DNA of 64,000 nucleotides from Pararhizobium sp. A13 (GTDB lineage: Bacteria; Pseudomonadota; Alphaproteobacteria; Rhizobiales; Rhizobiaceae). Below the pieces are notes generated by a model, which saw nothing but the letters and a program-made list of their open reading frames with translations, was not told the origin of the DNA and did not search any database. Where the stretch lies: contig NZ_CP149510.1 in NCBI RefSeq assembly GCF_040126305.1, positions 535,001 through 599,000 on the forward strand, written 5' to 3'. Both the position numbers and the translations under genes were made by a program. Below, piece by piece: positions 1 through 18,811 of this stretch; position 1 is the first letter of the stretch, and the number at the start of each line of letters is the position of its first letter.

Positions 1-783
1 CGCATGGGCGGTGATGATCATCGGATCGCTGCCGCCGGCCTCGATCACGGCCGGTTTCATCCGGCTGGCGGCGGCAGCGGCAACCGCCTTGCCGGCGGTG
101 ACCGAACCGGTGAAGGCAACCGCGTGGGTCAGCGGCGAGGCGATCAGGTGCTGCGCGACATCGGCACCACCGGGCATGCAGGCGATCAAGCCTTCGGGTA
201 ACGCTTCAAAGACCTGCATGAACTCGAGCGTCGACAACGTCGTCGCCAAGGCGGGCTTGATGATGCAGGCATTGCCCGCGGCAAGCGATGCCGCGACCGT
301 CCAGCACATCAGGAGGATCGGGAAGTTGAACGGCATGATGTGGACGCTAGTGCCGAGCGCCTCGTAGCGCGCATACTGGAACGAACCGGCCTGCGTCGTG
401 CCGGCCACCTTGCCCGCCTCGTCGCGGGCCATTTCGGCGAAGTAGCGGAAGGCGCCGGCGCAGTTGGCAACCTCGCCGATTGCTTCGGGATAGGGCTTGC
501 CCATCTCGCGCGACATGAGCTCGGCGCAGACCCGCATGTCGGTCGCCTCGATGCGGTTGGCGATGCGGTGCAGAATCGTGGCACGGCTCTTGGCGTCAAG
601 GCGTTTCCATTCGGATTGCGCTGTCTTGGCGGCAAGAAGCACTGAATCCAACTCGGCGACGGTCGCTGCTGCAAACACGCCTTCCTCACCGAGTGTCGCC
701 GGATTGATCACCGTGTGGCGCGCTCCCTTGGCGCGCACATAGTCTGGATGCCGGTAGAAAACGGGTTCGGCTGGAGTGAACAT
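1..783 (-). CDS. Aldehyde dehydrogenase family protein, N-terminal part (runs off left edge)
   Basis: The minus-strand frame is open from an ATG at 783 to the window edge, giving the first 261 residues of a protein whose family is usually about 480-500 long. It belongs to the NAD(P)-dependent aldehyde dehydrogenases. Visible motifs are PFNFP at 151-155 (Asn that stabilises the oxyanion), the IIKP lysine near 176, the Rossmann-type FTGSVTAGK at 224-232, and VIEAGG near 247-251 with the general-base Glu. The catalytic Cys would lie beyond the edge, so activity cannot be judged. The protein differs clearly from the second dehydrogenase at 9706-11184. It is the most distal visible gene of a minus-strand run with two cupins, a glycosyltransferase and a polyamine-type transporter, which suggests oxidation of an aldehyde made from the imported amine. 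The substrate is inferred, not shown. Confidence 0.9.
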   Translation of the reverse strand, partial: MFTPAEPVFYRHPDYVRAKGARHTVINPATLGEEGVFAAATVAELDSVLLAAKTAQSEWKRLDAKSRATILHRIANRIEATDMRVCAELMSREMGKPYPEAIGEVANCAGAFRYFAEMARDEAGKVAGTTQAGSFQYARYEALGTSVHIMPFNFPILLMCWTVAASLAAGNACIIKPALATTLSTLEFMQVFEALPEGLIACMPGGADVAQHLIASPLTHAVAFTGSVTAGKAVAAAAASRMKPAVIEAGGSDPMIITAHA

Positions 784-834
784 GGTGTTTTCCTGTTAAA
801 CGCATTTGCCTTGGTGAAGGCCCCCTCATCCTGC

Positions 835-855
835 CCTCTCCCCGCTGGGGAGAGG
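835..855. repeat. Short palindromic intergenic repeat (CTCTCCCC-GCT-GGGGAGAG)
   Basis: An 8-bp perfect inverted repeat with a 3-bp loop lies in the gap between the aldehyde dehydrogenase and the first cupin. The same motif recurs at 5902-6114 and 31337-31362. It is of the kind of rhizobial intergenic mosaic/palindromic repeat spread through these genomes. Confidence 0.7.
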
Positions 856-876
856 AGGTACAAAGACCGTAGCCAC

Positions 877-1224
877 TCAGCGGATCATGTAGACCTTCTT
901 GATCGTCTCATGCACGGTGCAGACACCCTTCCAGTCCTGCGGGAAGAAGGCTGCCGTGTCCGGCACGATCTCGATCACCTCCCCGCTTTCGTGCACATAG
1001 GTACAACGGCCTTCGAGGAAGTGGCAGAACTCGTCGCGGGTCACATGGCAGTTCCATGTGCCCGGCGTGCAGATCCACAGCCCGCATTCGGACTGGCCGT
1101 CCGGACCCTTGTGGATCAGCTTGCCGGTCGTACGGCTTTCGCCCGCGATCATGGTCGGGATGATGCCCCAGTCCTTGAGATCGGTTTCCTCGAGCGGCTT
1201 GCGCATCAGCGGTGTGGCGGTCAT
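877..1224 (-). CDS. Cupin_3-type (DUF861-like) small protein
   Basis: A 115-residue single-domain cupin. The start at 1224 is chosen over an upstream extension because GGAAAGGA lies just before it and the protein then begins at the family's usual place. Conserved features are WICTPGTW near 50-57, DEFCHFLEG at 64-72 and FFPQDWKG at 93-100, the beta-barrel core shared with its neighbour at 1254-1616. The two are clearly tandem paralogues. Cupins of this class include EutQ- and ureidoglycolate-lyase-like enzymes and non-enzymatic binding proteins; only one His lies in the EFCHF motif, so a full metal site is not obvious. Given the context, a role in handling an amine- or aldehyde-derived metabolite is possible but inferred. 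Confidence 0.85.
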   Translation of the reverse strand: MTATPLMRKPLEETDLKDWGIIPTMIAGESRTTGKLIHKGPDGQSECGLWICTPGTWNCHVTRDEFCHFLEGRCTYVHESGEVIEIVPDTAAFFPQDWKGVCTVHETIKKVYMIR

Positions 1225-1253
1225 GGCATGTTTCCTTTCCGATTTTGTTGTTG

Positions 1254-1616
1254 TCAGACCAGCATGTAGATGTTGCGCATGGTCTCGATCACGTGGCACT
1301 CGCCGGTCCAGCCGCCGGGGAACATGACGACGGTGCCCGCCTCGACTTCGATCACCTCGCCCTCGTCCGAGCGATAGACCGCCCGGCCGGCAACGAAATG
1401 GCAGAATTCGTCGCGCGGGATCGATAGCCGCCAGCGGCCCGGCGTGCAGACCCAGATACCGGATTCGGGCTGGTTGTTCGGCCCCTTGTGGACGAGCCGA
1501 CCGGTCGATTTCGACTGACCCTCGACACTGTCTGGCTGTGTGCCCCAGTCGACAAGATCATCATAGATTGTGGCGTTGTAGATGTGCGGCGCGGACGATG
1601 TTTTGAGTTCAACCAT
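1254..1616 (-). CDS. Cupin_3-type small protein, paralogue of the downstream cupin
   Basis: A 120-residue cupin. The start at 1616 is preceded by a GAGGGGGG Shine-Dalgarno-like run; the longer upstream reading enters a palindromic repeat and is not credible. It shares with the neighbour at 877-1224 the pattern WG..P....G.S..TG.L.HKGP, a W.CTPG.W block near 55-62, EFCHF at 70-74 and an ET....YM end. The tandem copies are about as long as each other and only 29 bp apart, so they probably act together, perhaps as a heteromeric pair. No substrate can be read from the sequence. The gene lies downstream of the glycosyltransferase on the same strand but is separated from it by a repeat-rich 233-bp gap. 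Confidence 0.85.
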   Translation of the reverse strand: MVELKTSSAPHIYNATIYDDLVDWGTQPDSVEGQSKSTGRLVHKGPNNQPESGIWVCTPGRWRLSIPRDEFCHFVAGRAVYRSDEGEVIEVEAGTVVMFPGGWTGECHVIETMRNIYMLV

Positions 1617-1619
1617 GAC

Positions 1620-1669
1620 ACCCCCCTCTGTTCCCTCGGGACATCTCCCCACCGAGGGGGGAGATTGGC
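1620..1669. repeat. Rhizobial intergenic repeat, copy in inverted orientation to 1742-1795
   Basis: The segment reads CCCCCCTCTG ... GACATCTCCCC ... GGGGGGAGAT. The copy at 1742-1795 is the same element on the other strand, so together they form a large inverted pair in the 1617-1849 gap between cupin and glycosyltransferase genes. Related pairs occur at 36163-36350. Confidence 0.75.
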
Positions 1670-1741
1670 GATTGCCACATCTTTCCGACTAACGCCGCAC
1701 CTTCAGCGAAAAACGATGCTTTTGCACGAGGGTTCGGCATG

Positions 1742-1795
1742 CCCCCGATCTCCCCCCTTGAGGGGGAGATGTCCCGAAGGGACAAAGGGGGGTAA
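1742..1795. repeat. Rhizobial intergenic repeat, partner of 1620-1669
   Basis: The segment reads GATCTCCCCCCTTGAGGGG ... GATGTCCCGAAGGGAC ... AGGGGGGT, with nested hairpins. Reverse-complemented it aligns with the copy at 1620-1669. Confidence 0.75.
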
Positions 1796-1849
1796 GCGGC
1801 AACGACAGAGCGAGCGGCGATCGAGTACCCGACCGCATCCGAAAAAATC

Positions 1850-3142
1850 TCAGCCATCGAACTTGCCCGTCCCGGCCAGCTGATCGAGGATGTCCGCCGC
1901 CTTCTTCGGCCCGTTCTGCGCCTGCATATGGGCGCTGGTCGCCGCCAGCTTCGCCTTCATCTTCGGATCGTTGATGCAGGCGTCGAGCTTGGCCGCAAGC
2001 TCCTCGTCGGTCCAGTCGTAACGCGGCATCTTGAAGCCATGGCCGGTCTCGTCAACGCGGGTTGCATTGTCATGACCATCCCAGACATAGGGCATGATGA
2101 TCGCCGGTTTGCCGAAATAGAGGCACTCGGTGAAGGAGTTGTTGCCGCCGTGATGGATCGCAGCGTCGATCTGCGGGATGACCGAAGGCTGCGGAAACCA
2201 GCTTTCGACGATGACGTTGCTAGGCAGGTTGTCGTACTGTTCCTTGTAGTCGCCGACATTGACGAGCGCCCGATAGGGCAGCTTGCCGAGGGTGGTGATC
2301 AGGCGTTTCAGAAGACCCGTGTCGCCGGCCCCGAGGCTGCCGAAAGAGATATACAGCAGCGGCTTGTCGTTGTTTTCGGCAAAGGTCGGCACCTCATAGG
2401 GCTTTTCCTTGCGCACGCACCCTTCCAGATACTGGAACCGTTTCGGATCGAGCGGATGAGCGCGATCGAACTTTACCGATTCCGGGTAAAGCAGCAGGTT
2501 CATGACGGGCGATGCCTCGAAGAACTGGCCAATCGGATAGGCGTCCTCGCCGGTCGAGTCGAGGAAAGCGTTGAAATCATCGTGGATCGGCTTGATCACC
2601 GCGTTGAATTTTTCGCGATACGCGGCGTGGCCTTCCAGATCATCCTGGCGGCAGCCGGACAGATGCGGCGGGATCTTCGGGTCCTCGATCTCGTTTTCCG
2701 AGCAGGAGATGATGCGCACCCAGGGCTTGCCGAACTGCTTGATCGCCGGGAACAGGATGACGTTGTCGACGCAGATCAGGTCCGGTTTGATCTTCGCCAG
2801 TACGCCCGGAAGATCTTTTTCAGCCCACTTGGCGCTGTCGACAATCGCCTCCCAGCAATCCTTCACGTAGTTGTCGATCTGGTCGTAAGGCGATTTGCGG
2901 AAGTTCGAAATGTGACCGTTGATGAAGTCTTCCCAGAATTTTGCCATCTGTTCCGGCGGCATCGGCGCCGAGAGGTTCACCGGATACGCCTCGAAACCAT
3001 ACCCCTTGTAAACATCGACGAAGCCGGGGTCGGACAGGAAGACCGCCTTGTGGCCGAGCGCTTCGACAGCCTGGGCGATGCCGACGGAGTTCAGCGCCGG
3101 GCCGAAAGCCGCCTCGGGGAAGAATGCTATCGTCTTGGACAT
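1850..3142 (-). CDS. MGT-family (GT1, UGT-like) glycosyltransferase
   Basis: A 430-residue GT-B fold glycosyltransferase of the macrolide-glycosyltransferase (MGT) type. The start at 3142 is used because AGAGGGAA precedes it and residues 1-25 (SKTIAFFPEA... SVGIAQ) form the expected first beta strand and helix of the acceptor domain. The donor-binding C-terminal half shows FGSLG near 267-271, SWFPQPS near 314-320, HHGGNNS at 330-336 and WDGHDN at 354-359, which correspond to the nucleotide-sugar signature of this family. Members move a sugar from UDP- or TDP-sugar onto small lipophilic or amine-containing acceptors. It is strongly similar in every motif to the gene at 8428-9693. It is directly downstream (20 bp) of a polyamine-type ABC ATPase, so its acceptor may relate to the imported compound. 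That link is inference. Confidence 0.9.
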   Translation of the reverse strand: MSKTIAFFPEAAFGPALNSVGIAQAVEALGHKAVFLSDPGFVDVYKGYGFEAYPVNLSAPMPPEQMAKFWEDFINGHISNFRKSPYDQIDNYVKDCWEAIVDSAKWAEKDLPGVLAKIKPDLICVDNVILFPAIKQFGKPWVRIISCSENEIEDPKIPPHLSGCRQDDLEGHAAYREKFNAVIKPIHDDFNAFLDSTGEDAYPIGQFFEASPVMNLLLYPESVKFDRAHPLDPKRFQYLEGCVRKEKPYEVPTFAENNDKPLLYISFGSLGAGDTGLLKRLITTLGKLPYRALVNVGDYKEQYDNLPSNVIVESWFPQPSVIPQIDAAIHHGGNNSFTECLYFGKPAIIMPYVWDGHDNATRVDETGHGFKMPRYDWTDEELAAKLDACINDPKMKAKLAATSAHMQAQNGPKKAADILDQLAGTGKFDG

Positions 3143-3161
3143 GAGTTCCCTCTTTGTTTTT

Positions 3162-4229
3162 CTAGTCCTGGAAAATCCGGCAGGCCGCTGCATCAAAGCC
3201 GAGTGACACCGTCGCCCCGGTTTGCGCAGCGGCCACTTCAGGTCCAGCCGCCGCCACGCGGACCTGAAGGGGCGCCGATTGCAGCGCCGTTTTGACGTAG
3301 AGCTGCCGGTCGAGACCGTGATAGGCGACATCGACGACCGTGCCGGCGATACCGATGCCCGCGGGCCTCAGGGCGATATTTTCCGGCCTGATTGCAAGCA
3401 CCGCCTTCTCATTTCGCTTCAGCCCACCAAGATCGCACGCAAGCGTTTCGCCAGCGGCCCGAAACAGGGCATCGGCGCCGATCTCGCCCTCAATGAAATT
3501 CATCACGCCGATGAAGCCCGCGACGAAACGGTTGGCGGGCCGCTCGTAGACTTCTTGCGGCGTGCCGCATTGCAGGATACGGCCATCCTTCAGCACCGCG
3601 ACCCGGTCGGCCATGACCAGCGCCTCTTCCTGATCGTGGGTGACGATGATGAAGGTGATGCCGACCTCGTTCTGCAGCCGTTTCAGTTCCAGCTGCATTT
3701 TTTCGCGCAGTTTCTTGTCAAGCGCGCCGAGCGGTTCGTCGAGCAAAAGCACCCTCGGCCGCTTGATCAGCGCGCGGGCCAAAGCCACCCGCTGTTTCTG
3801 ACCGCCGGAAAGCTCGGCCGGTTTGCGTTCGGCCAGTGCCTGGAGATCCGTCGTCTTCAGCATCTCCTCGACGCGGGCGGAAATCTCACCCTTGGCGAGG
3901 TGTTCCATTTCGAGGCCATAGGCGAGATTCTGCCGGACCGTCATATGCGGAAACAGGGCATAGGACTGGAACATCAGGTTGAGCGGTCGCTTTTCCGGCG
4001 CCTGATCGGTGATATCGCTGCCGGAAAGCCTGATCCGCCCCTCGTCCGGCTGCTCGAACCCGGCGATCATCCTGAGCAGCGTGGTCTTGCCGCAGCCCGA
4101 TGGCCCAAGCAGCGCGAAGAACTCGTTTTCGCGGATATCGAGCGACAGCCCGTCGACGGCAACCGTCTTGCCGAAACGCTTCACCACCGTATCGACCGCC
4201 AGAACCGGGGCTTTGAAGTCAATGTTCAT
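3162..4229 (-). CDS. Spermidine/putrescine-type ABC transporter ATP-binding protein (PotA-like)
   Basis: A 355-residue ATPase of an importer. Walker A GPSGCGKTT is at 42-50, the Q-loop Gln near 88, the signature LSGGQ at 140-144, Walker B LLLDEP at 161-166 and the H-loop His near 198. The C-terminal third (from about 240) is the TOBE-type regulatory domain of the PotA/FbpC/UgpC group. The start is taken at 4229, where ATG overlaps the stop of the permease in an ATGA junction; the nine-residue longer reading lies entirely inside the permease end. It would energise the two permeases at 4226-5876 with the periplasmic protein at 6125-7183. Substrate is polyamine-like by family, not proven. Confidence 0.93.
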   Translation of the reverse strand: MNIDFKAPVLAVDTVVKRFGKTVAVDGLSLDIRENEFFALLGPSGCGKTTLLRMIAGFEQPDEGRIRLSGSDITDQAPEKRPLNLMFQSYALFPHMTVRQNLAYGLEMEHLAKGEISARVEEMLKTTDLQALAERKPAELSGGQKQRVALARALIKRPRVLLLDEPLGALDKKLREKMQLELKRLQNEVGITFIIVTHDQEEALVMADRVAVLKDGRILQCGTPQEVYERPANRFVAGFIGVMNFIEGEIGADALFRAAGETLACDLGGLKRNEKAVLAIRPENIALRPAGIGIAGTVVDVAYHGLDRQLYVKTALQSAPLQVRVAAAGPEVAAAQTGATVSLGFDAAACRIFQD

Positions 4230-5017
4230 CGGGTCATCTGTTCTTTGTTTAGCCATTGCGAAAGCAGCAGCGCAGTCGCGCTGACGCCCATGACGATGGT
4301 GGCAAGCGCATTGATTTCCGGCGTTACGCCGAAACGGATCATCGAATAGATCTGCATCGGCAGCGTGATCGAGGAACGTCCGGCGCCGGAGGTGAAGAAG
4401 GCGATGATGAATTCATCGACCGACAGGGTGAAGGCGAGCAGCGCGCCGGCGACGATGGCCGGCAGCAGCACCGGGAAGGTCACGCGCCAGAAGGTGGTGA
4501 AGGCCGAGGCGCCGAGGTCGCGCGAGGCCTCGACGATCGAGAAATCGAAATTCTTCAACCGCGCCCGCACGACGGAGCAAACGAAGGCAAGGTCGAAAAT
4601 CACATGGCTGATGACGATCGTGTGCAGACCCATGGTCACATTCAACCGCGAAAACAGGGTGAGCAGCGCCACCGCCAGCACGATGTCGGGAATAACCATC
4701 GGCGCGAAGGCAAGCGCCTCCAGCGGCGTGCTCCTGCGCTTCCGTGTCTCCATGCCGAGCGCCAGCATCGTGCCGAGCACGGTGGCAATAAGGGTGGAGA
4801 AGATGGCAACAACCAGCGTGTTCCACGCGGCATGGAGAATATCGCTGTTGCCCGCCAGCGAAGCGTACCAGCGCAACGAAAAGCCCGACCAGGTCGTCGG
4901 CAGGCCGCTTGCATTGAACGACAGGAGAACCAGCACCGCAATCGGCAGGTAGAGAAAACCGAAGACAAGAACGAGGATCGCTCTCCCCGTCAGCTTGATG
5001 CGCAGCGAGTCAGCCAT
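4226..5017 (-). CDS. Spermidine/putrescine-type ABC transporter permease (PotC-like)
   Basis: A 263-residue inner-membrane permease with about six hydrophobic segments; the first spans roughly 12-33. The EAA loop EASRDLGASAF...P is near 163-182 and contacts the ATPase. Length and the second position in the operon fit PotC. It overlaps the next permease by 8 bp (5010-5017) and the ATPase by 4 bp, so translation of the three is coupled. Confidence 0.93.
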   Translation of the reverse strand: MADSLRIKLTGRAILVLVFGFLYLPIAVLVLLSFNASGLPTTWSGFSLRWYASLAGNSDILHAAWNTLVVAIFSTLIATVLGTMLALGMETRKRRSTPLEALAFAPMVIPDIVLAVALLTLFSRLNVTMGLHTIVISHVIFDLAFVCSVVRARLKNFDFSIVEASRDLGASAFTTFWRVTFPVLLPAIVAGALLAFTLSVDEFIIAFFTSGAGRSSITLPMQIYSMIRFGVTPEINALATIVMGVSATALLLSQWLNKEQMTR

Positions 5018-5876
5018 TGGCAGCCCCCAGCGTTTCGCCGCTGAAGCGGGATGAGGCGCGCGCCTGCAAGAGCAGCAGCGCGATCATGATGGCGATCAGC
5101 ACCATGCCGAGGGCGGCGCCGAACGGCCAGTCATTGGCGGTCAGGAACTGGTCGTAGACGAGATTGCCAATCATCTGGAACCGGCCGCCGCCGAGCAGCG
5201 CCGGGGTGACGAAATTGCCGATCGACAACACGAAGACGAAGACGCCGCCGGCAGCAATGCCGGGCATCGTGAGCGGCAAAGTCACCCGCAGGAAGGTCCG
5301 TACCCGCCCTGCCCCAAGATCACGCGAGGCTTCGATCAATTCGCTGTTCAGCCGCGACAGGCTGGAATAGATCGCCAGGATCACGAAAGGCAGATAGTTG
5401 TAAACGAGGCCGGTAATCACAGCACCTTCGCTGTAGAGCAAAGCCAGCGGTTCGCCCTCATAGCCGAGCCAGCGCAGCAGATTGTTGATCAGCCCCTCGC
5501 GGTTGAGCAACACGATCCAGGCATAGGTGCGGATCAGATAATTGCTCCAGAAAGGCAGGACGGCAAAAAACAGCAACAGCGGCTGCGTGCGCTTCGGAGC
5601 CAGGCAGATGGCGTAGGCCGCGGGATAGGCGATCAGGATCGCCAGCAGCGTCGCAATCCCGGCAATACGCACGGAGGCGAGGAATATCTTCGCATAGAGC
5701 GGATCGAAGACGCGCTGAAAATTCTCGAGCGTGAACGTGTATTCGATGCCGCCGTAGAGCCCCCGCGTCAGAAATCCATAGGCGAGGATGATCAGGCACG
5801 GCACGACCATGAACAGGCCGAGCCACGCAACGGCCGGCAGAGCCATGAGATTGGAACGAACCGTCTGCGAGGACAA
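5010..5876 (-). CDS. Spermidine/putrescine-type ABC transporter permease (PotB-like)
   Basis: A 288-residue permease with six predicted membrane segments, the first at about 13-34. The block LPFWSNYLIRTYAW at 107-120 is a hallmark of PotB-type subunits, and the EAA loop lies near 182-201. It pairs with the PotC-like subunit encoded just downstream. It follows the gene for the binding protein after a 248-bp gap filled with palindromic repeats, which may lower expression of the membrane parts relative to the binding protein. Confidence 0.93.
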   Translation of the reverse strand: MSSQTVRSNLMALPAVAWLGLFMVVPCLIILAYGFLTRGLYGGIEYTFTLENFQRVFDPLYAKIFLASVRIAGIATLLAILIAYPAAYAICLAPKRTQPLLLFFAVLPFWSNYLIRTYAWIVLLNREGLINNLLRWLGYEGEPLALLYSEGAVITGLVYNYLPFVILAIYSSLSRLNSELIEASRDLGAGRVRTFLRVTLPLTMPGIAAGGVFVFVLSIGNFVTPALLGGGRFQMIGNLVYDQFLTANDWPFGAALGMVLIAIMIALLLLQARASSRFSGETLGAANG

Positions 5877-5901
5877 GAAAAGAACTCCGGGGTTTATTTA
5901 C

Positions 5902-6114
5902 CCCTCTCCCCGCAGGCGGGGAGAGGGTTTTTGGATGCGTCCGTCAAGGCAATCCCACCTGAATTCGGACCGTTTGGCTTGCGGCACTTCTCCCCAGCGG
6001 GGAGAAGTGCCGGGCGCATGCGAGGCGATGAGGGGTGGCGCGGCAGATTCGGAGTAGGTGGCTTCGCCCCCCTCATCCGACCCTTCGGGCCACCTTCTCC
6101 CCGCTGGGGAGAAG
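5902..6114. repeat. Cluster of three palindromic repeats inside the transporter operon
   Basis: Three hairpins occupy the gap between the binding-protein gene and potB: 5902-5927 (CCCTCTCCCCGC arms), 5984-6010 (CACTTCTCCCC-AGC-GGGGAGAAGTG) and 6094-6114 (CTTCTCCCC-GCT-GGGGAGAAG). As RNA they would make stable stem-loops downstream of the binding-protein message, a position where such structures often protect the 3' end. Confidence 0.75.
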
Positions 6115-6124
6115 AGGAAACGGT

Positions 6125-7183
6125 TCAGTTTGCCGCCTTGATCTCGCTCACAGCACGGGAATAGTCGCGCTGTGCCTCGCCGAGGTCCTGAAGCTCCTCG
6201 TATTTGACGAGCGTTTCAGGCGAGACGCCCATGGTTGGGTATTTCTTGACGAGTTCCGGATCAAGGCTTTCCATGGCCGGCTTGTTCGGCACTTCGTAGA
6301 AGATGTTCGACGCCGCCCAGGCATGGTTCTTCGGCTCGAGAATGTAGTTCACGAACTTCAGCGCCGCGTCCTTGTGCTCGGAATTCTTCATCACCACCAT
6401 GGTGTCGATCCAGAGGTCGGAGCCTTCCTTCGGGACGACGAACTTGATCTTGTCGTTTTCGGCGATGCCGTAATTGCACCAGCCGTCCCAGGCCTGCACC
6501 AGCGAGGCTTCGCCGGAAACGAGCTTCGAATAGAAGGTCGTGTCGTCATAGGCGAGCAGGTTCTTCTTGGCTTCGATCAGCGCGTTTTTCGCCGCCTCGA
6601 TCTTTGCCGGGTCCTTTTCGTTGACGGAATAGCCCTTGTAGAGCAACCCCGCCGCCATCAGCCAGCGGTCGGTCGAGAGCATGGTGATCTTGCCCTTCAG
6701 CGCCGCCGGCGGGTCGAGCAGATAGGACCAGCTGTCCGGCGTGCCTTCAACGAGATCGGAACGATAGCAAAGGCCCGTCGTTCCCCAGGCGTAGGGAACG
6801 GCATAGGTATTGCCCGGATCGAACGCGAGCTTGGTTGCCTGCGGATAGAGGTTCTTGAGGTTCGGCACCTTCTCGACGCCAAGCGGTTCGAGCAGCCCCT
6901 GCCCATTCAAGATATGCGCGAAGGGGGAAGAGACGAACACGACGTCGTAGCCCTTGCCCTGGCCCGCCATCAGCTTGCCCATGATTTCTTCGTTGGTGGC
7001 GTGGTTGACCACCTCGATGGTGAGCCCGGTTTCCGCCTTGAAGGTCTCGGCGATATCCGGCGCCATGTATCCGGCCCAGTTGGAGATCACCAGATCGGCC
7101 GAAAGCGCGGTTCCGGCAGACAGAAGCATGGCTGTCGACGCAAGACCGGCCAGGCGCAGTTTCACTGACGTTTTCAAGGACAT
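6125..7183 (-). CDS. Polyamine-type ABC transporter substrate-binding protein (PotD-like)
   Basis: A 352-residue periplasmic protein. Residues 1-29 form a Sec signal peptide (basic start, hydrophobic core 11-22, cleavage likely after the Ala of TALSA). The mature protein starts DLVISNWAGYMAPD, the usual opening of spermidine/putrescine-binding proteins, and carries WGTTGLCYR and QAWDGWCNYG blocks. The ATG at 7183 sits directly against GGGAG with no spacing, so the TTG two codons later (7177), which has a 6-base spacing, may be the true start; the signal peptide is unaffected. The gene is first in the minus-strand operon and divergent from the GntR regulator. Ligand is an amine by family; which amine is unknown. 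Confidence 0.92.
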   Translation of the reverse strand: MSLKTSVKLRLAGLASTAMLLSAGTALSADLVISNWAGYMAPDIAETFKAETGLTIEVVNHATNEEIMGKLMAGQGKGYDVVFVSSPFAHILNGQGLLEPLGVEKVPNLKNLYPQATKLAFDPGNTYAVPYAWGTTGLCYRSDLVEGTPDSWSYLLDPPAALKGKITMLSTDRWLMAAGLLYKGYSVNEKDPAKIEAAKNALIEAKKNLLAYDDTTFYSKLVSGEASLVQAWDGWCNYGIAENDKIKFVVPKEGSDLWIDTMVVMKNSEHKDAALKFVNYILEPKNHAWAASNIFYEVPNKPAMESLDPELVKKYPTMGVSPETLVKYEELQDLGEAQRDYSRAVSEIKAAN

Positions 7184-7448
7184 CTCCCGTTGCTGGCGCA
7201 ATCCGGAGCCCAGGTTCGCCCTGGACGCTCGCCGCTTGCGCAAATCCATCATCCCGGAGGGTTTCGCGGTCCAGCGCGTCGCCGTCTCCGAGGGTCCAAC
7301 CTCTGTTCCCGAAGCGGCTCGCCGATTATCCGGTCTATGTGTCGCTTCATCAGGCAGTATTATTTATAAAAAAAATACGTCAATACGAATTCGTGTGGCG
7401 TCTGAAATTTAACAGATGCCCTTGCGAAAGGCCCTTGGAAGATGCAGC
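7184..7448. promoter_or_regulatory. Divergent control region between potD-like and gntR-like genes
   Basis: A 265-bp gap between two divergent start codons. An AT-rich block near 7361-7400 holds a perfect 10-bp palindrome ACGAATTCGT at 7385-7394 that could be an operator for the GntR protein. No convincing -35/-10 pair was assigned. Confidence 0.4.
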
Positions 7449-8414
7449 ATGCGTTTTATGGCAGCACGTTCAGGGCACAAGGCGATGGAAGCAGAGGCGA
7501 AGAAAGTCAAATATCGCCATGTCGAACTGGCGCAAAAAATACTTGATATCGCGACAGAACGGGGCATGAGCCGCGGTGAACGGCTTCCCGAACAGGCACT
7601 TGCCTCGCGCTGCAACGTCTCGCGCACCCCGATCCGCAAGGCCTTGCAGTTCCTTGCCGAGAAATCGATCGTCGAAGCGGAGGCCGAGGGCGGCTACCTG
7701 CTTGCCATCGACCCGGCCTCCTTTCCAGGCCTGGAGGATGCGGCTCAGCCGGCTGAAGAAACCGAGCTCTACAACGCCATCCTGCGCGACGTCTCGGCCG
7801 GCCGCATCAGCGACGCGCAAACGGTCGCCAGCCTGCAGCGGCGCTACGAGGCGTCGCGCAACGCGGTACAAAATGCGCTGACGAGGCTTGCCGAGGACAA
7901 CCTCGCCGAACGCGCGGCCGGCCAGCAATGGCTGATCAAGCAGTTCGCCATCAGCGGCGATGCAGTCGCCAAGAGCTTCGAATACCGCCTCTCCTGTGAG
8001 CCTCTGGCACTCACCATGCCCGGCTTCCGCCGCGACGTCGCGGCGATCACCTCGCTCAGGCAATCCATGGAAATCCTGCGCTCGATGACGGAGAGCAGCT
8101 TTGACCAGAAGCTCTTCGAGCGCACCGACTTCGACTTCCACATGCTGATCGCCAAAAGCTGCGGCAATCCCTTCATGTCGGAGGCGCTGTCGAGTCACCA
8201 CCGCCGCCGCCGATCGAGCCAACCGCCCGTGCATGTCAACGCCTTCCGGCTGATGCAGTCCAACATGGAGCACATCCAGATGCTGGAGCAGATCGAGCGC
8301 GGCCAGATGGAGCTTGCGGCCGACCTGATGCGCGTGCATATCCAGCTTTCCCATTCCCAGCGGCCGCGGCTGGCCGGACGCGGCGTCCCGCCTGTCTTCA
8401 AGGTGGTGGGCTAA
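7449..8414 (+). CDS. GntR-family regulator with two winged-helix segments and an FCD domain
   Basis: The start at 7449 is preferred because GGAAG lies 7 bases upstream; an ATG at 7416 has no ribosome site and one at 7485 is possible. The 321-residue product has a GntR winged helix at about 23-87 (PEQALASRCNVSRTPIRKALQFL). A second segment at about 105-165 (SLQRRYEASRNAVQNALTRLAEDN) looks like another GntR-type helix-turn-helix. An FCD ligand domain follows at about 172-300, with Asp227, His231, His275 and His297 in the places where such domains bind a metal and a carboxylate. It is divergent from the transporter operon and precedes a glycosyltransferase and dehydrogenase, so it most likely controls both arms. 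The ligand is unknown. Confidence 0.85.
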   Translation: MRFMAARSGHKAMEAEAKKVKYRHVELAQKILDIATERGMSRGERLPEQALASRCNVSRTPIRKALQFLAEKSIVEAEAEGGYLLAIDPASFPGLEDAAQPAEETELYNAILRDVSAGRISDAQTVASLQRRYEASRNAVQNALTRLAEDNLAERAAGQQWLIKQFAISGDAVAKSFEYRLSCEPLALTMPGFRRDVAAITSLRQSMEILRSMTESSFDQKLFERTDFDFHMLIAKSCGNPFMSEALSSHHRRRRSSQPPVHVNAFRLMQSNMEHIQMLEQIERGQMELAADLMRVHIQLSHSQRPRLAGRGVPPVFKVVG

Positions 8415-8427
8415 ACTCGGTGCGTGA

Positions 8428-9693
8428 ATGAGCCAGCCCAAGGTAATCGCCTTTTTTCCGGAAGCCAGCTACGGCGCCGCGCTGAACTGCGTTGGCATTG
8501 CCCAGGAGCTTCGCCGGATGGGCGCGCGGCCGGTCTTCATCTGCCATCCCGGCTTTCGCGGTGTCTTCAGCGAATACGGTTTTCCAGAGTACCAGCTGCA
8601 ATCGGCGGGCAGCGAAACCCCGACCGACTGGACCGATTTCATCAACCGCCATCAGGACGCGTTCCGGCAAACGCCGCTGGAGCAGGTGAAGAGCTATGTC
8701 GCTCCGACCTGGGAGGCGATCGTCGACACGGCAATTGCCGCCGAAGAGCCGCTTCGCCAGCTTCTGGCGCAGTTGAGGCCGTCGGTCGTCGTGCTCGACA
8801 ACGTCGTGATGTTCCCGGCCATCGCCAATGCCGGTGTGCCTTGGGTCAGGGTCGTCTCCTGCGCCGAGACGGAGCTGCGCGATCCGCTCGTGCCGCCCTA
8901 TCTTTCCGGCTGCGGCGGCAAGCCCGGTCCGGACTGGTCGACGTTTTCAGGGCGCTACGCCAAGGCCGTGGCTCCCGCACAAAAACGCATGAATGCCTTT
9001 CTCGCGGACTGCGGCCTGAGCCCTTTGCCGCCGGGCGAGTTCCTGGAAAACTCGCCTTTTCTCAATCTGCTTTTGTCGCCCCGCATTGTCCGTTTCGAAC
9101 GCGAAATACCGCTCGACGCGCAAAAATTCGTCTGTCTCGACGGCTGCGTCCGGCAGGAGGCGCCCTATACGCTGCCGCACTTTGCCTCGCATCAGGATGC
9201 GCCGCTGGTGCTCACGAGCTTCGGCAGCCTTGGCGCCATGGACGTCTCGATGATCAAGCGGATGATCGGCGGCTTTGCCGAACTGCCCTACCGCTTCATC
9301 GTCAATGTCGGGCCATGGCGCGACGACTACAGCCGCATACCCGACAATGTCTTCCTCGAAAGCTGGTTTCCGCAGCCTTCCGTCGTCGAACAGTCGAGCC
9401 TGTTCATCCATCACGGCGGCAACAACAGCTTTTGCGAGGCGCTCTATTTCGGCGTGCCGTCGCTCATCATGCCGTTCTGCTGGGATGGCCACGACAATGC
9501 GCGTCGTGCGGACGACGTTGGCGTGGGGCGCCGGATCGATCGCTACCGCTGGACCGAGGAGGAACTCGCCTCCGCCATCACCGGCCTGCTCGACAATCCT
9601 GCTCTGAACGATAAACTCTCGGCCAATTCGGACGCGATGAAGAAGGCCGCTGGCGTCACGGTGGCAGCCAAGGCAATTCTCGACCTGATCTAA
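8428..9693 (+). CDS. MGT-family (GT1) glycosyltransferase, paralogue of the one at 1850-3142
   Basis: A 421-residue glycosyltransferase. The acceptor domain opens KVIAFFPEASYGAALN..GIAQ. The donor domain has TSFGSLG near 263-269, ESWFPQPSVV at 311-320, HHGGNNS at 328-334 and WDGHDN at 352-357, all shared with the copy in the other arm of the cluster. Its start lies 13 bp after the regulator's stop with no strong ribosome site, suggesting coupled translation. Two related enzymes in one cluster may glycosylate the same acceptor at different positions or use different donors; this is inference. Confidence 0.9.
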   Translation: MSQPKVIAFFPEASYGAALNCVGIAQELRRMGARPVFICHPGFRGVFSEYGFPEYQLQSAGSETPTDWTDFINRHQDAFRQTPLEQVKSYVAPTWEAIVDTAIAAEEPLRQLLAQLRPSVVVLDNVVMFPAIANAGVPWVRVVSCAETELRDPLVPPYLSGCGGKPGPDWSTFSGRYAKAVAPAQKRMNAFLADCGLSPLPPGEFLENSPFLNLLLSPRIVRFEREIPLDAQKFVCLDGCVRQEAPYTLPHFASHQDAPLVLTSFGSLGAMDVSMIKRMIGGFAELPYRFIVNVGPWRDDYSRIPDNVFLESWFPQPSVVEQSSLFIHHGGNNSFCEALYFGVPSLIMPFCWDGHDNARRADDVGVGRRIDRYRWTEEELASAITGLLDNPALNDKLSANSDAMKKAAGVTVAAKAILDLI

Positions 9694-9705
9694 AGGGACG
9701 GCGAC

Positions 9706-11184
9706 ATGCAGGACAGGCTTTATATCGACGGAGAATGGATAAGGCCGGAAAAGGGCGGGACGCTGGATGTCATCAATCCCGCCACCGAAGAGATCATCCA
9801 CAAGGCCCCCGCCGGCACCAGCGGCGATATCGACAAGGCCGTCAAAGCCGCGCGCTACGCCTTCGATTCCGGCCCATGGCCGCGTTTCACGGGGACCGAG
9901 CGTGCCGTTTATCTGCGCGCCATCGCCTCGAAGATTATCGAGAAGCGGGAGTTTCTCGCCAAGCTCGAAGTCGCCGACAACGGCAAGCCCCTGCCCGAAG
10001 CGCTGTGGGACATCGACGATGTCGCCGGCTGCTTCAACTATTATGCCGGGCTTGCCGAGGAACTCGATCACAGTCCGGAGGAAACGATTCCGCTCAGCGA
10101 ACCGCGTTTCTCCTCACGCGTGGTGCGCGAACCGCTCGGCGTCGTCGGCGCCATCACACCATGGAACTATCCGCTGCTGATGGTCGCCTGGAAGGTGGCC
10201 CCTGCCCTTGCCGCCGGCTGCACCATGGTGCTGAAACCCTCGGAACTGACGCCGCTCACCGCGCTTGAACTTGGCGTCATTGCCGAGGAGGTCGACCTTC
10301 CGGCCGGCGTGCTCAACATCGTCACCGGTACCGGCCCGCAGGCCGGCGAGCCGTTGACCGAGCATCCGCTGGTCGACAAGCTCGCCTTCACCGGCTCGGT
10401 CTCCACCGGCCGCAAGGTGATGATGGCGGGCGCGCAGGACATCAAGAATGTCAGCCTCGAACTTGGCGGCAAATCGCCCTTCGTCATCTTCGCCGACAGC
10501 GATATCGACAAGGCCGTCGAATGGATCATGTTCGGCATCTTCTGGAACCAGGGCCAGGTCTGTTCGGCCACCTCGCGCGTGCTGGTCGAGGCGAGCATCT
10601 ACGACGCCGTCGTTTCGCGGCTGTGCGAGGAAGCGGCGAAGATCAAGATCGGCAGCGGCATGACCGAGGGCACGCTGCTTGGCCCGATCGTTTCCAAGGG
10701 GCAATACGACAAGATCGTTTCGGCGATCGAGCGTGCCCGCATCGACGGCGCGACGGTTGCAGCAGGCGGCAGCCGCCCGGCCGGCCTCAACAGCGGCTAT
10801 TTCATCGAGCCGACGGTCCTGACCGACATGAGCGAGGACAGCTACGTCTGGAAGGAGGAGATCTTCGGGCCTGTCGTCTGCGTCAAGCCGTTCAAGGACG
10901 AGGACGAGGCCATCCGCGTGGCCAATGACAGCCGCTTCGGGCTTGCGGCTGCCGTCATGTCGAAGGACGTGATGCGCGCCGAACGCGTGGCCGAGGCTTT
11001 CCGCGCCGGCATCGTCTGGGTCAACTGCTCGCAGCCGACCTTCACCGAGGCTCCCTGGGGCGGCTACAAACAATCCGGCATCGGCCGCGAACTGGGCCGC
11101 TGGGGACTGTCGAACTATCTGGAGACGAAGCAGATCACCCGGTTCAACAGCGACGAGCCGTGGGGGTGGTATATTAAAAGGTGA
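9706..11184 (+). CDS. Aldehyde dehydrogenase, betaine/aminoaldehyde dehydrogenase-like
   Basis: A complete 492-residue NAD-dependent dehydrogenase. PWNYP at 152-156 carries the oxyanion Asn, FTGSVSTG is at 228-235, the general base is Glu252 in LELGGKSP, and the nucleophile is Cys286 in QGQVCSATSR. The WNYP and QVCSATSR forms are typical of betaine-aldehyde and omega-aminoaldehyde dehydrogenases. These oxidise the aldehydes made when polyamines are deaminated. It is the last gene of the plus-strand arm (regulator, glycosyltransferase, dehydrogenase) with 12 bp between coding regions. Together with the transporter it supports an amine-uptake and oxidation role, though no amine oxidase or aminotransferase is visible in the window. 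Confidence 0.92.
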   Translation: MQDRLYIDGEWIRPEKGGTLDVINPATEEIIHKAPAGTSGDIDKAVKAARYAFDSGPWPRFTGTERAVYLRAIASKIIEKREFLAKLEVADNGKPLPEALWDIDDVAGCFNYYAGLAEELDHSPEETIPLSEPRFSSRVVREPLGVVGAITPWNYPLLMVAWKVAPALAAGCTMVLKPSELTPLTALELGVIAEEVDLPAGVLNIVTGTGPQAGEPLTEHPLVDKLAFTGSVSTGRKVMMAGAQDIKNVSLELGGKSPFVIFADSDIDKAVEWIMFGIFWNQGQVCSATSRVLVEASIYDAVVSRLCEEAAKIKIGSGMTEGTLLGPIVSKGQYDKIVSAIERARIDGATVAAGGSRPAGLNSGYFIEPTVLTDMSEDSYVWKEEIFGPVVCVKPFKDEDEAIRVANDSRFGLAAAVMSKDVMRAERVAEAFRAGIVWVNCSQPTFTEAPWGGYKQSGIGRELGRWGLSNYLETKQITRFNSDEPWGWYIKR

Positions 11185-11905: not shown

Positions 11906-12124
11906 TCATGTTAGACGTTTGAACGTCCATTTGACGACATATTCGCCGTTGCGCTTGATTTTGGTTTTGGTCCGCACCCGGACCGGCCCACCCAACGAAA
12001 TCTCCGCATCGTCGAAGGCTTGGCGGGCCTCGGCGATGGCTTGATGATAGGCGCTGTTGTCACGTTTTGGGCTTTCAGCAATCGCCTTGAGAAGGGCGAC
12101 CGTGTCTAGTTTGTCTTCAGCCAT
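11906..12124 (-). CDS. Small hypothetical protein (72 aa)
   Basis: The start at 12124 gives MAEDKLDTVALLKAIAES..., with AAGGAG 12 bases upstream, and drops an unlikely 26-residue extension. The protein has an acidic helical first half and a basic C-terminal half (RTKTKIKRNGEYVVKWTFKRL). I do not recognise the family. The gene stands alone between two non-coding gaps in an AT-richer patch, consistent with acquired DNA. Confidence 0.5.
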   Translation of the reverse strand: MAEDKLDTVALLKAIAESPKRDNSAYHQAIAEARQAFDDAEISLGGPVRVRTKTKIKRNGEYVVKWTFKRLT

Positions 12125-12453
12125 GAATTGGTCGCACTCCTTCGCGGCCGCGCACAAACCTATGTCGCTATGCCCAACACATTGGGGCAATACACGAACC
12201 AACGTGCTCTACTCAATCCAAACCTCTGGCTTCAAATCTGCGGCGTCATCACATCAGCTTTTGGTCCGCAGCTGCCTTCAGCCTGTCGCAAAAGTCTGTC
12301 GCGAAACACTGACTTTCACGAGGGATTTTGCGACAGAAATTTCCTCCGGAATTCCAAGGGACGGATTTTGTCGTTGAATTTGGGCAGATCCTCTGAAAAC
12401 TCGATCGGCGAAGATCGGAATTGACGGGACGCAACCTTCCCTTTGGACAGCGG
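12125..12453. other. Non-coding gap with an 11-bp inverted repeat
   Basis: No supported gene. CTGTCGCAAAA (12283-12293) is repeated inverted as TTTTGCGACAG (12326-12336), with a third partial copy TGTCGCGAAA between them. The pattern resembles a protein-binding or recombination site, or a transposon scar, but nothing flanking confirms it. Confidence 0.4.
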
Positions 12454-12822
12454 TTAATTGCTTCCTGGAAGAGGCTGTAGGAAGATGCGCTCATAGCTAT
12501 CGAACGGTGGATTTTCGCCGAAACGCGCGTTTGCTGCAATGCCATGCGGATCTTCGGCGACCTTACTACGATAGCGGAGGTAGGTCGTCTCATCTGGAAA
12601 AGTGAAGAGGGCGACAGCAATATCGCTGGCTCCCTCCTCACCCACACGCGGGAAGCTCACGCCAACACCGGCCGGCTTTTCGCGAGGGATGAAATAGCCG
12701 TGGTGCGTTCCGCCATGACGTTCGATGAGGCCGATCCAGGTTCGGGCATAAGCTTGGAATTCCGCAATTCTGCCTTGATCAACGCGGTAGCGAACTTCGC
12801 AGGTAACGGGAGTATTCAACAT
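12454..12822 (-). CDS. NIPSNAP family protein
   Basis: A 122-residue protein with the ferredoxin-like alpha/beta pattern of NIPSNAP: YRVDQGRIAEFQAYARTW at the front, HGGTHHGYFIP in the middle and an RSKVAEDPHG.. segment before the C-terminal SYERIFLQPL. AAGGAG lies 11 bases before the ATG. Bacterial NIPSNAP proteins are small dimers of unknown or accessory function, often near oxidoreductases. Neighbours are a VOC protein and a Rid protein, so it may belong to a small detoxification or catabolic island. No catalytic residue can be named. Confidence 0.75.
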   Translation of the reverse strand: MLNTPVTCEVRYRVDQGRIAEFQAYARTWIGLIERHGGTHHGYFIPREKPAGVGVSFPRVGEEGASDIAVALFTFPDETTYLRYRSKVAEDPHGIAANARFGENPPFDSYERIFLQPLPGSN

Positions 12823-12949
12823 TCAGTGCTCATCTCCTTGATTACCTCGGAAAGCTGAAAGCCATTGACAATGGGCATTTGAACCGGTCGACGGCGACCC
12901 TAGGCAAGCGATCTTCAACCCAATGATTGCCTCTGTGGCCGTTGACTGA

Positions 12950-13226
12950 GATTCCTAAGTGTAATGTCCTGTGGTAACTTCTGCCATGGCCCATCTTTCA
13001 GCAACAGACCGACCTTTTGAAGCTCTACGTGGCGGAAGACGATAATGAAAAGCGAGCCAAATCCGTCAGCCTACATGAACGCACGGGCTGACTTCGAAGC
13101 AGCATAGAGCCCCACCTTTACAAGGTTCGTGTCCACCGCCTCCGGAAGAAGCAGCATCTGCGAGCGGTCTGTTCCTGATAAATGGGCCATAGCAAAACCT
13201 ACCATGGCCCGCTACCTTGAGGAATC
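12950..13226. repeat. Large imperfect inverted repeat (MITE-like or decayed insert)
   Basis: The arms 12972-13011 and 13165-13204 match at 33 of 40 positions when one is reverse-complemented, with the core ATGGCCCAT and ACAGACCG identical. Weaker similarity extends outward to GATTCCT at 12950 and AGGAATC at 13226. The centre is about 150 bp. It could be a miniature element or two inverted copies of one gene start. Confidence 0.5.
13071..13190 (-). pseudogene. Short decayed coding remnant (39 codons)
   Basis: From an ATG at 13190 the frame reads MAHLSGTDRSQMLLLPEAVD, then TNLVKVGLYAASKSARAFM and a stop. The first half resembles the N-terminus of some IS1182/IS5-type transposases; the second half resembles the YxxxK region of short-chain dehydrogenases. 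Neither reading accounts for the whole. It overlaps the right arm of the inverted repeat and has no ribosome site, so I take it as a scar. Confidence 0.25.
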
Positions 13227-13255
13227 CCGGATGCATTCCATAGAAAGAAGCGACA

Positions 13256-13618
13256 TTGCCAATAAACAGAATAGTGCTCTACGCGCAGGACGTCGAGGAG
13301 ACCGTTCGTTTCTACGAAAAACACTTTAGGTTTGAAGCGTCCAGACAGGCCGGCGACGGGATCATTGAACTGGTTAGCCAGGACAATGGGGCAAATTTGA
13401 TGATCCACCAAGCTGCCAAGGGACAACGAAGCGGCCAATCAACCGTCAAATTGGTCTTCGACGTAGAGGACCTCGAAGCCTTTTGCGCTCTTCGCGCGAA
13501 AGACGGACTCGAATTCGGAACCATCCATCAGGCAGATGGATACATGTTCGCCAATGCTAAGGACCCTTGCAAAAACTCAATCTCAGTTTCAAGCCGAGCC
13601 TTCCGGAAAACCGCCTAA
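13256..13618 (+). CDS. VOC (glyoxalase/bleomycin-resistance-like) protein
   Basis: A 120-residue single vicinal-oxygen-chelate module starting with TTG at 13256 after GAAAGAAG. The opening INRIVLYAQDVEETVRFYEKHFRFE is the classic first beta-alpha unit, followed by a second one (LVFDVEDLEAFCALRAKDGLEFG) and a closing YMFANAKDP strand, where the full form is usually D..GN. The protein could act as a metal-dependent lyase or dioxygenase or as a binding protein. It is convergent with the Rid gene and lies in an AT-richer patch. No specific substrate is indicated. Confidence 0.75.
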   Translation: MPINRIVLYAQDVEETVRFYEKHFRFEASRQAGDGIIELVSQDNGANLMIHQAAKGQRSGQSTVKLVFDVEDLEAFCALRAKDGLEFGTIHQADGYMFANAKDPCKNSISVSSRAFRKTA

Positions 13619-13658
13619 GACTTCTCACACAGTCTGCAGGGATTTCGCGACAACAGCA

Positions 13659-14057
13659 CTAGGCATCCGAAGGAATGCGGGCGATGACCTTGATCTCGAA
13701 ATCGAACCCAGCAAGCCAGTTCACACCGATTGCGGTCCAGTTCGGATAAGGCGGCTCGCTGAAAATCTGTTGTTTGACAGCCATAATGGTCCCGAACTGG
13801 TTCTCGGGGTCCGTGTGGAACGTAGTGACATCAATGATATCGTCAACGGTGCAGCCTCCAGCTTTAAGCGTTGCCTGAAGGTTGTCGAAGGCCAGTTGGA
13901 CCTGGCGCCCGAAATCAGGTTCAGAAGTCCCGTCGGGACGGCTGCCGACCTGTCCGGATACGAAGAGGAGGTCGCCGGAGCGAATCGCGGCTGAATAGCC
14001 GTGTTCCTCATAAAGAGCGTGCCTGTTTGCAGGAAAGATTGCGTTACGCTTAGCCAT
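13659..14057 (-). CDS. Rid-family (YjgF/YER057c/UK114) protein without the RidA arginine
   Basis: A 132-residue trimeric Rid fold: YSAAIRSGDLLFVSGQVG, then FDNLQATLKAGGCTVDDIIDVTTFHTD, then FEIKVIARIP at the end. In RidA the enamine/imine deaminase site needs an Arg in the PARS..V motif before the last strand; here the matching segment is YPNWTAIGV, with no Arg. It therefore belongs to another Rid subgroup, and imine deaminase activity cannot be assumed. AGAGAGA precedes the ATG. It is divergent from a TetR gene across a region with three matching operator palindromes, so it is probably repressed by that regulator. Confidence 0.88.
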   Translation of the reverse strand: MAKRNAIFPANRHALYEEHGYSAAIRSGDLLFVSGQVGSRPDGTSEPDFGRQVQLAFDNLQATLKAGGCTVDDIIDVTTFHTDPENQFGTIMAVKQQIFSEPPYPNWTAIGVNWLAGFDFEIKVIARIPSDA

Positions 14058-14223: not shown

Positions 14224-14817
14224 ATGGCAAAGCGACGCGTCGAGATGATGGAGGAGAACCGCGCCAAGCTGATCGCGGCAGCTCGAAAGGCTTTTGCCGA
14301 TAAGGGATACGCCGCAGCGTCCATGGACGAATTGACGGCCGAGGTCGGTCTGACACGGGGCGCACTTTACCACAATTTCGGAGACAAGCGTGGGCTGCTG
14401 GCGGCGGTTGTCAATCAGATCGACGCTGAAATGGCTTCGCGCGCGAAGGAAATCGGCGCCCAATCGGAGCGCGACTGGGAAGGGTTGTTGGCCGAAGGGA
14501 TCGCCTATATCGAAATGGCGCTCGATCCCGAAGTACAGCGCATCGTTCTGCTCGACGGACCTGCAGTTCTCGGCGATCCGTCACAATGGCCCAGCCAGAA
14601 CAGTTGCCTTCAGGCGACAAAGCAGACGGTGGAGCGGTTAATCACACAAGGAATTCTCAAACCAGTTGACGCAGAAGCCGCTGCCCGGCTCCTCAATGGC
14701 GCCGCGCTCAATGCTGCCCTATGGATCGCTGCCAGTGACGATCCGAAGGGTGTTTTGCTGAAGGCTATCGAGGCCTTCCGCTCCCTGGCCATGGGCCTTC
14801 TTGTACGACCTGGGTGA
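14224..14817 (+). CDS. TetR/AcrR-family transcriptional regulator
   Basis: A 197-residue repressor. The N-terminal HTH domain spans about 10-60 (RAKLIAAARKAFADKGYAA, then MDELTAEVGLTRGALYHNFGDK). The C-terminal part is an all-helical ligand domain. It is divergent from the Rid gene, and three identical-core palindromes between them make a near-certain operator set. The last few codons run into a sequence that also occurs near 25087-25163, so the 3' end may have been altered by recombination. The inducer is unknown. Confidence 0.92.
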   Translation: MAKRRVEMMEENRAKLIAAARKAFADKGYAAASMDELTAEVGLTRGALYHNFGDKRGLLAAVVNQIDAEMASRAKEIGAQSERDWEGLLAEGIAYIEMALDPEVQRIVLLDGPAVLGDPSQWPSQNSCLQATKQTVERLITQGILKPVDAEAAARLLNGAALNAALWIAASDDPKGVLLKAIEAFRSLAMGLLVRPG

Positions 14818-18763: not shown

Positions 18764-18811
18764 GGGAAATCTCCCGTTCTGAAAACGACAATACAGTAGC
18801 ATACAGGCATC

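Follow-up and report, generated by a model that had tools for sequence, protein, structure and literature searches.

A conserved Pararhizobium gene cluster joining a Pot-type importer, cupins, and aldehyde dehydrogenases to paired UGT-like glycosyltransferases without the catalytic histidine: a candidate amine-catabolic module

The described systems that most resemble the gene cluster reported here are the four-gene importer PotABCD of E. coli, the Puu pathway (PuuA to PuuE), the carboxyspermidine and saccharopine dehydrogenases, the macrolide-family glycosyltransferases (GTs) OleD and YjiC (TIGR01426), and, as the closest known GT systems, the spider-mite enzymes UGT203A2 (7lvy, 7mco) and UGT202A2 (6pnt, 8sfy). 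The cluster occupies positions 1 to 11184 of a 64-kb window, by which we mean the whole stretch analyzed (535,001 to 599,000 of contig NZ_CP149510.1, assembly GCF_040126305.1), from the 6.36-Mb genome of Pararhizobium sp. A13. All coordinates are window positions. The minus-strand arm has the order aldehyde dehydrogenase (ALDH)-cupin-cupin-GT-PotACBD, and the plus-strand arm has the order GntR-GT-ALDH. Right-arm genes are separated by 12 to 13 bp, and potA/potC and potC/potB overlap, which fits two operons that start from a shared intergenic region (7253 to 7415). In close relatives, the left operon runs on past the window start. The first-pass annotation had placed PotABCD-like genes and tandem cupins in the left arm and a GntR regulator at the head of the right arm, and all of these were found at the positions it gave. 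We propose, with a probability of roughly 40%, that the cluster encodes a GntR-controlled, self-contained catabolic module that would take up and oxidize a mono-cationic amine, its GTs N-glycosylating the amine or an aminoaldehyde.

Scanning genome contigs with the right-arm GT (GT_R) identified 288 encoding loci. The 80 best were retained, a set that is therefore chosen by similarity. As additional samples, 398 genomes of the phylum and 199 of the family were searched with the left-arm GT (GT_L), giving matches at an E value of ≤1e-20 in 8 and 23 genomes, respectively. Two GT-bearing genomes, one of them the window's own, were in both samples, leaving 28 others, from each of which one region was fetched. 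Exactly two GT matches were present in 22 of the 23 family genomes and 7 of the 8 phylum genomes. By tblastn, GT_L was accompanied by potA, potB, potC, and potD in 28 of 28 genomes; cupA and cupB were each present in 27, GT_R in 26, gntR in 25, the right-arm ALDH (ALDH_R) in 12, and a kinase in 7. The left-arm ALDH (ALDH_L) was found in 26 at 55% identity, or in 27 if the 58% match of L107 is counted. GT_R was missing from two genomes, L111, which stops at a contig end, and L107, which shows none, and the cupA and ALDH_L misses also lie at a contig end.

Counts in the 80 loci were based on open reading frames (ORFs), which undercounts the overlapping pot genes: gntR and GT_R, 80 each; potD, 76; GT_L and potB, 75 each; potA and potC, 74 each; cupA, 69; ALDH_L, 68; cupB, 67; and ALDH_R, 39. 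Most misses fell at a contig end or in masked sequence. Loci with the same divergent arrangement come from Rhizobiaceae, Shinella, Mesorhizobium, Hoeflea, Pseudomonas, and Ruegeria. Chance juxtaposition was rejected by the recurrence in all 28 sampled genomes, and scattering of the GTs and dehydrogenases away from the transporter, which would have spoken against the grouping made in the first-pass annotation, was seen in just three exceptional loci of the 80. These results support the view that the two GTs, the importer, the cupins, and ALDH_L are one heritable unit. Co-divergence correlations (0.63 to 0.91) had no control and were not used. One Rhizobium metagenome-assembled contig (JAHHDR010000022.1; L039 and L040) has two complete copies of the cluster, oppositely oriented and about 33 kb apart, which is either a real duplication or an assembly artifact. 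On a Ruegeria conchae plasmid (L101), the full cluster is directly adjoined by another Pot-type ABC operon together with an SDR gene.

The arms also share a candidate regulatory site. Alignment of the intergenic region of the window with those of 15 relatives revealed one conserved block, AGTATTATTTATAAAAAAAATACGTCA at 7356 to 7382, in otherwise diverged DNA. It is near-palindromic, with GTATT...AATAC ends and symmetry at 18 of 22 positions, and when up to 3 mismatches are allowed, it has a single genomic match, against none for a control pattern. Of the 80 loci, 23 carry an exact copy, 37 a best match with no more than 2 mismatches, and 62 one with no more than 6; the remaining 18 loci, largely Pseudomonas, gave matches at chance level only. 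The Mesorhizobium version, AGTACTATTGCAGAAAAAAGTACGTCA, has compensating changes at both ends (GTACT/AGTAC) and a palindromicity of 14/22. Palindromicity alone was rejected as proof of an operator, because 26 22-mers in the window, the same or others, are equally palindromic. The block is likely a dedicated local operator and a putative site for the adjacent GntR-family regulator with an FCD domain (7416 to 8414, plus strand; PF00392 and PF07729), and both arms are probably under joint control. A wider regulon was rejected, as there is no second genomic match at up to 3 mismatches.

GT_L (1850 to 3142, minus strand, starting at the ATG of MSKTIAFFPEA; taken as 1850 to 3130 in most analyses) and GT_R (8428 to 9693, plus strand; PF06722/PF00201) are 48% identical and are the only matches to GT_R across the whole genome at an E value of ≤1e-3. 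Each forms its own clade in the tree, so that the arms, called mirrored in the first-pass annotation, do mirror each other in their GTs. Both proteins have the GT-B fold and C-terminal UDP-sugar domain of the UGT (GT1) enzymes, in common with OleD and YjiC, but they lack a complete His-Asp catalytic dyad. The position of the catalytic His is occupied by Ala in 80 of 80 GT_R and by Pro in 74 of 74 GT_L sequences (Pro in 55 and Ala in 23 of a wider set of 78). The partner Asp is kept, the HHGGNN donor motif is intact, and the dyad Asp and the rest of the donor motif are invariant. Two acidic invariants, E6 and E147, lie in the N-terminal, acceptor-binding half. Assignment to the macrolide family, made previously, did not hold: GT_L and GT_R scored 117.8 and 111.1 bits against a TIGR01426 cutoff of 260, and a macrolide- or antibiotic-modifying GT was rejected by score, His loss, and nearest structure.

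The nearest solved relatives are instead the spider-mite UGTs (GT_R against UGT203A2, E value of 2.8e-52). UGT203A2 retains the catalytic His (FGHVN) and the DQ motif, whereas the cluster GTs have FGPALN or [FY]GAALN and DG. Descent of the mite UGTs from exactly this GT family is not settled by the tree, in which the mite rows sit on long branches. Loss of the general-base His with retention of Asp, together with the acidic invariants E6 and E147, would suit N- rather than O-glycosylation, and one report (PMC12246196) offers a precedent in which UGTs without the dyad His favor N-glycosylation. Three actinobacterial relatives from Streptomyces and Nonomuraea (L102, L103, and L144; about 35% identical) share a His-less motif, YGPTNN or YGPSNN, so a wider His-less UGT family exists beyond this cluster. 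L102, the one annotated locus of the three, has no importer, cupin, or ALDH neighbor. L103 (NZ_LT559118.1) is an 11.85-Mb Nonomuraea record labeled as a plasmid and is probably a chromosome.

The kinship with the mite enzymes raises the possibility of detoxification: the importer and ALDHs would serve a nutrient amine, and the GTs would attach sugar, through O or N, to a co-occurring toxin of plant or microbial origin or to a reactive by-product aldehyde, leaving a dead-end conjugate. The mite structures contain bound flavonoids according to their titles, mite UGTs are treated as detoxification genes in published work, and the GT family is sporadic in both the phylum and the family samples. 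It would be surprising, however, for a broad detoxification GT to remain within a single operon alongside cupins and an importer in 28 of 28 genomes or to occur as an invariant paralogous pair, and no efflux or exporter gene was present among the first 25 recurrent neighbor families (those in at least five loci). We regard detoxification as unlikely, if still credible. The invariant loss of the catalytic His, the change from DQ to DG, and the retention of two strictly different paralogues side by side could also mean that these proteins have ceased to transfer sugar: they could sense or bind nucleotide sugars as a hetero-pair, or catalyze another reaction in a UGT fold. This we judge distinctly improbable: the dyad Asp and the rest of the donor motif would hardly be invariant, the sugar-kinase partners described below point to a sugar product, and a single GT is found in the haloarchaeal records and in G008, so an obligate hetero-pair is not general.

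The left arm encodes all four importer components of the PotABCD type: an ATPase (3162 to 4256; PF00005/PF08402), two permeases, PotC-like (4226 to 5017; PF00528) and PotB-like (5010 to 5876; PF00528), and a solute-binding protein (6125 to 7252; PF13416), all on the minus strand. The PotA-like protein passes its subfamily cutoff (TIGR01187, 365.8 bits against 355.6). The PotB-like protein reaches 268 bits against 348. The PotD-like protein differs from E. coli PotD, scoring 155 bits against a cutoff of 582, and its ligand pocket is altered: E36G, D168T, and E171W in 76 of 76 sequences and Y85P in 75 of 76. W34, Y37, W229, W255, D257, and Y293 are kept in all 76. Among the acidic polyamine ligands of PotD (E36, D168, E171, and D257), D257 is the sole survivor. 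One acidic anchor within an aromatic cage suggests a mono-cationic ligand, and because three acidic polyamine-binding residues are lost, the ligand is probably neither putrescine nor spermidine.

Classical polyamine uptake, implied by the earlier label of a polyamine-type importer, is thus not supported by the pocket, and plain putrescine or spermidine uptake was rejected. The pocket bears equally on a reading in which the locus is an ordinary polyamine catabolic operon and the GTs are passengers. The importer and ALDH annotations and the PuuA- and PuuB-like genes of relatives would fit it. We nevertheless consider it highly improbable, given the loss of the PotD acidic residues, the retention of GTs in all sampled clusters, and the presence of GT_L also in a haloarchaeal cupin-ALDH operon.

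The two ALDHs are not equivalent. ALDH_L (1 to 783, minus strand, its 3′ part lying outside the window; PF00171, E value of 8.6e-62) belongs to the core, and its relatives carry the catalytic motifs GQ[VI]CT in 64 of 64 full-length sequences and EAGGS in 63 of 64. ALDH_R (9706 to 11184, plus strand), which resembles betaine and aminoaldehyde dehydrogenases (558 bits against a BADH cutoff of 668.6), carries ELGGK and GQVCS in 36 of 36 sequences and is accessory; in L022 and L078, it lies several kilobases off on the opposite strand. The supposed mirror symmetry therefore fails for the ALDHs, and the pair was rejected as a functional mirror since ALDH_R occurs in only 39 of the 80 loci. Between ALDH_L and GT_L on the minus strand lie two Cupin_3 proteins, cupA (877 to 1224; single-domain, EutQ-like; PF05899, E value of 1.7e-16) and cupB (1254 to 1616; PF05899, E value of 3e-14). 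A motif of cupA, DEFCHFLEG...CTVHET, is strongly conserved in 69 sequences, and the sole solved relative of this protein is the uncharacterized 3bcw (E value of 3.1e-8).

Genes that could open an amine adjoin the cluster in many relatives. The gene after ALDH_L in close relatives encodes a 395-amino-acid saccharopine-dehydrogenase-family protein (PF03435/PF16653, Sacchrp_dh domains), whose best solved relative is carboxyspermidine dehydrogenase 8deb (E value of 1.2e-16). Such a gene is present in 37 of the 80 loci, including many Rhizobiaceae, and in 14 of the 28 genomes; from loci L005 to L012, we infer that the Pararhizobium genome carries it beyond the window. In Mesorhizobium and others, a PuuA-like synthetase and a PuuB-like oxidase take its place (19 and 18 of the 80 loci). 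Among 37 loci with the saccharopine-dehydrogenase-like gene and 19 with Puu-type genes (≥35% identity), none had both, a pattern confounded by lineage and short flanks. G008 has a PuuB-like neighbor and another gene that was classed by eye, from the N terminus of its product, as flavin amine-oxidase-like. PuuA and PuuB genes are absent from the window, and an adjacent PuuA-like (45%) and PuuB-like (38%) pair lies elsewhere in its genome. The Puu pathway is not known to include GTs or paired cupins.

Sugar-kinase genes recur as well. An AmgK-like kinase of about 347 amino acids is inserted between cupA and ALDH_L in 17 of the 80 loci and is the kinase of the 7 sampled genomes; at 237.4 bits against the NF045698 equivalog cutoff of 500, it is related to AmgK but is not AmgK itself. 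Both haloarchaeal records, plasmids of Natrialba magadii and Natronorubrum aibiense, hold a simpler form of the cluster: after a GT-cupin-ALDH operon come genes for an ROK kinase and a phosphohexomutase, and a Pot-type importer is encoded no more than about 11 kb away. The nearest NCBIfam model for the ROK kinase is ATP-dependent glucokinase, below cutoff. The haloarchaeal binding proteins differ from the PotD-like proteins of the cluster, that of Natronorubrum keeping D168 and E171. Natrialba has, besides the transporter, a glutamine synthetase, a flavin adenine dinucleotide-dependent oxidase, an amidotransferase, and an aminotransferase nearby. Genes of the PuuA, PuuD, and PuuE types lie close to this cluster.

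These neighbors could instead serve to make a sugar-capped amine or polyamine-like product, such as a compatible solute, signal, or metallophore, from an imported precursor: the GTs and the carboxyspermidine-dehydrogenase-like gene could build the conjugate, and the haloarchaeal ROK kinase and phosphohexomutase could feed donor synthesis. ALDHs, FCD-GntR regulators, and Puu-type partners are, however, typical of catabolism, and the clusters have two ALDHs, an FCD-GntR, PuuA- and PuuB-like partners, and, in Natrialba, a PuuD/PuuE-type pair. The dehydrogenase reaches only 24 bits against the carboxynorspermidine synthase equivalog cutoff of 800 (NF043000), and an exporter was likewise lacking among the recurrent neighbor families defined above. 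Biosynthesis is, in our view, rather improbable.

Gene content, linkage, operator, and residue changes are observed, whereas substrate, sugar donor, and reaction are predicted. In the catabolic module that we favor, the Pot-type ABC importer would, judging by homology, take up a substrate with one cationic amine head rather than a classical di- or triamine. An amine-opening enzyme would then yield an aldehyde; this may be the saccharopine/carboxyspermidine-dehydrogenase-like protein in many Rhizobiaceae, whereas in Mesorhizobium and others the role may fall to a flavin oxidase of the PuuB type, accompanied or not by a PuuA-like ligase. ALDH_L, joined by ALDH_R where present, would oxidize the aldehyde to an acid. 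The unusual step would be the transfer, by GT_L and GT_R, of sugar from a nucleotide donor onto a nitrogen atom of either the substrate or the aminoaldehyde, after which the cupins may process the conjugate or release it. Some lineages may salvage the sugar by means of a kinase, either AmgK-like or, in haloarchaea, ROK with the phosphohexomutase. The reading draws support from the linkage, the pairing of the GTs, the shared operator, the sugar-kinase partners, the intact HHGGNN motif, and the recurrence of amine-oxidation partners (saccharopine-dehydrogenase-, PuuA-, and PuuB-like). The earlier proposal that the locus imports an amine-like compound, oxidizes it, and glycosylates it thus remains the best supported in outline, although its macrolide-family GTs, classical polyamine uptake, and equal ALDH halves had to be given up.

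Several observations weigh against this module. In 77 of 78 sequences, Gly replaces the donor Gln of the customary DQ motif, which could mean an unusual sugar or an absence of transfer. Loss of His alone is no proof of N-transfer, since in PMC12246196, C-to-A mutants showed lowered N-glycosylation and raised O-glycosylation. Next to the Pseudomonas cluster, no saccharopine-dehydrogenase-like or PuuB-like gene was seen. Most loci, the window arms among them, have no sugar-kinase gene, and the genome of the window has just a 34% AmgK-like relative, located elsewhere; moreover, AmgK-like kinases could act on an amino alcohol. The exceptional loci count here too: in L050 (Solimicrobium silvestre), the one clear unlinked case, gntR and GT_R stand alone within 10 kb; in L049, GT_L is about 8 kb away and cut, and the importer is absent; and L057 lacks potBCD.

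A more specific version of the catabolic module, which we hold to be doubtful, makes the sugar a reusable protecting group for the aminoaldehyde, as glutamate is in the Puu pathway, in a module common to bacteria and haloarchaea. The His-less UGTs would N-glycosylate the amine, oxidation would act on the protected intermediate, and a cupin would free the sugar, which a kinase (ROK with phosphohexomutase, or AmgK-like) would send back towards the donor pool.

Outside the cluster, the G+C content dips at 12001 to 14000 (0.535 against about 0.62), where there are few long ORFs. A TetR-like gene, named by eye, follows at 14224 to 14817, and a long MetH-like (methionine synthase) gene lies on the minus strand at 14984 to 18800; such a gene is also near the cluster in L013, L051, and L133. 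To the left of the window, L003 places the cluster close to a region with translated ORFs resembling rRNA-operon reading frames. In five relatives (L005 to L007, L009, and L010), the match starts within about 0.7 kb of the contig start, as expected beside an rRNA operon.

A search of the open-access PMC literature returned no description of this gene set; subscription papers and preprints were outside its scope, and absence from print is not established. For a pathway without a description in the literature searched, the cluster offers a gene set in defined order, a candidate operator, and clear predictions at the residue level. Its GTs are the closest prokaryotic relatives found of the solved spider-mite detoxification UGTs and thus bear on the origin of that arthropod family. 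If His-less UGTs do N-glycosylate imported amines, they would constitute a dedicated amine glycosyltransferase family of bacteria and archaea, and glycosylation would be a second chemical solution, besides glutamylation, to the handling of reactive aminoaldehydes.

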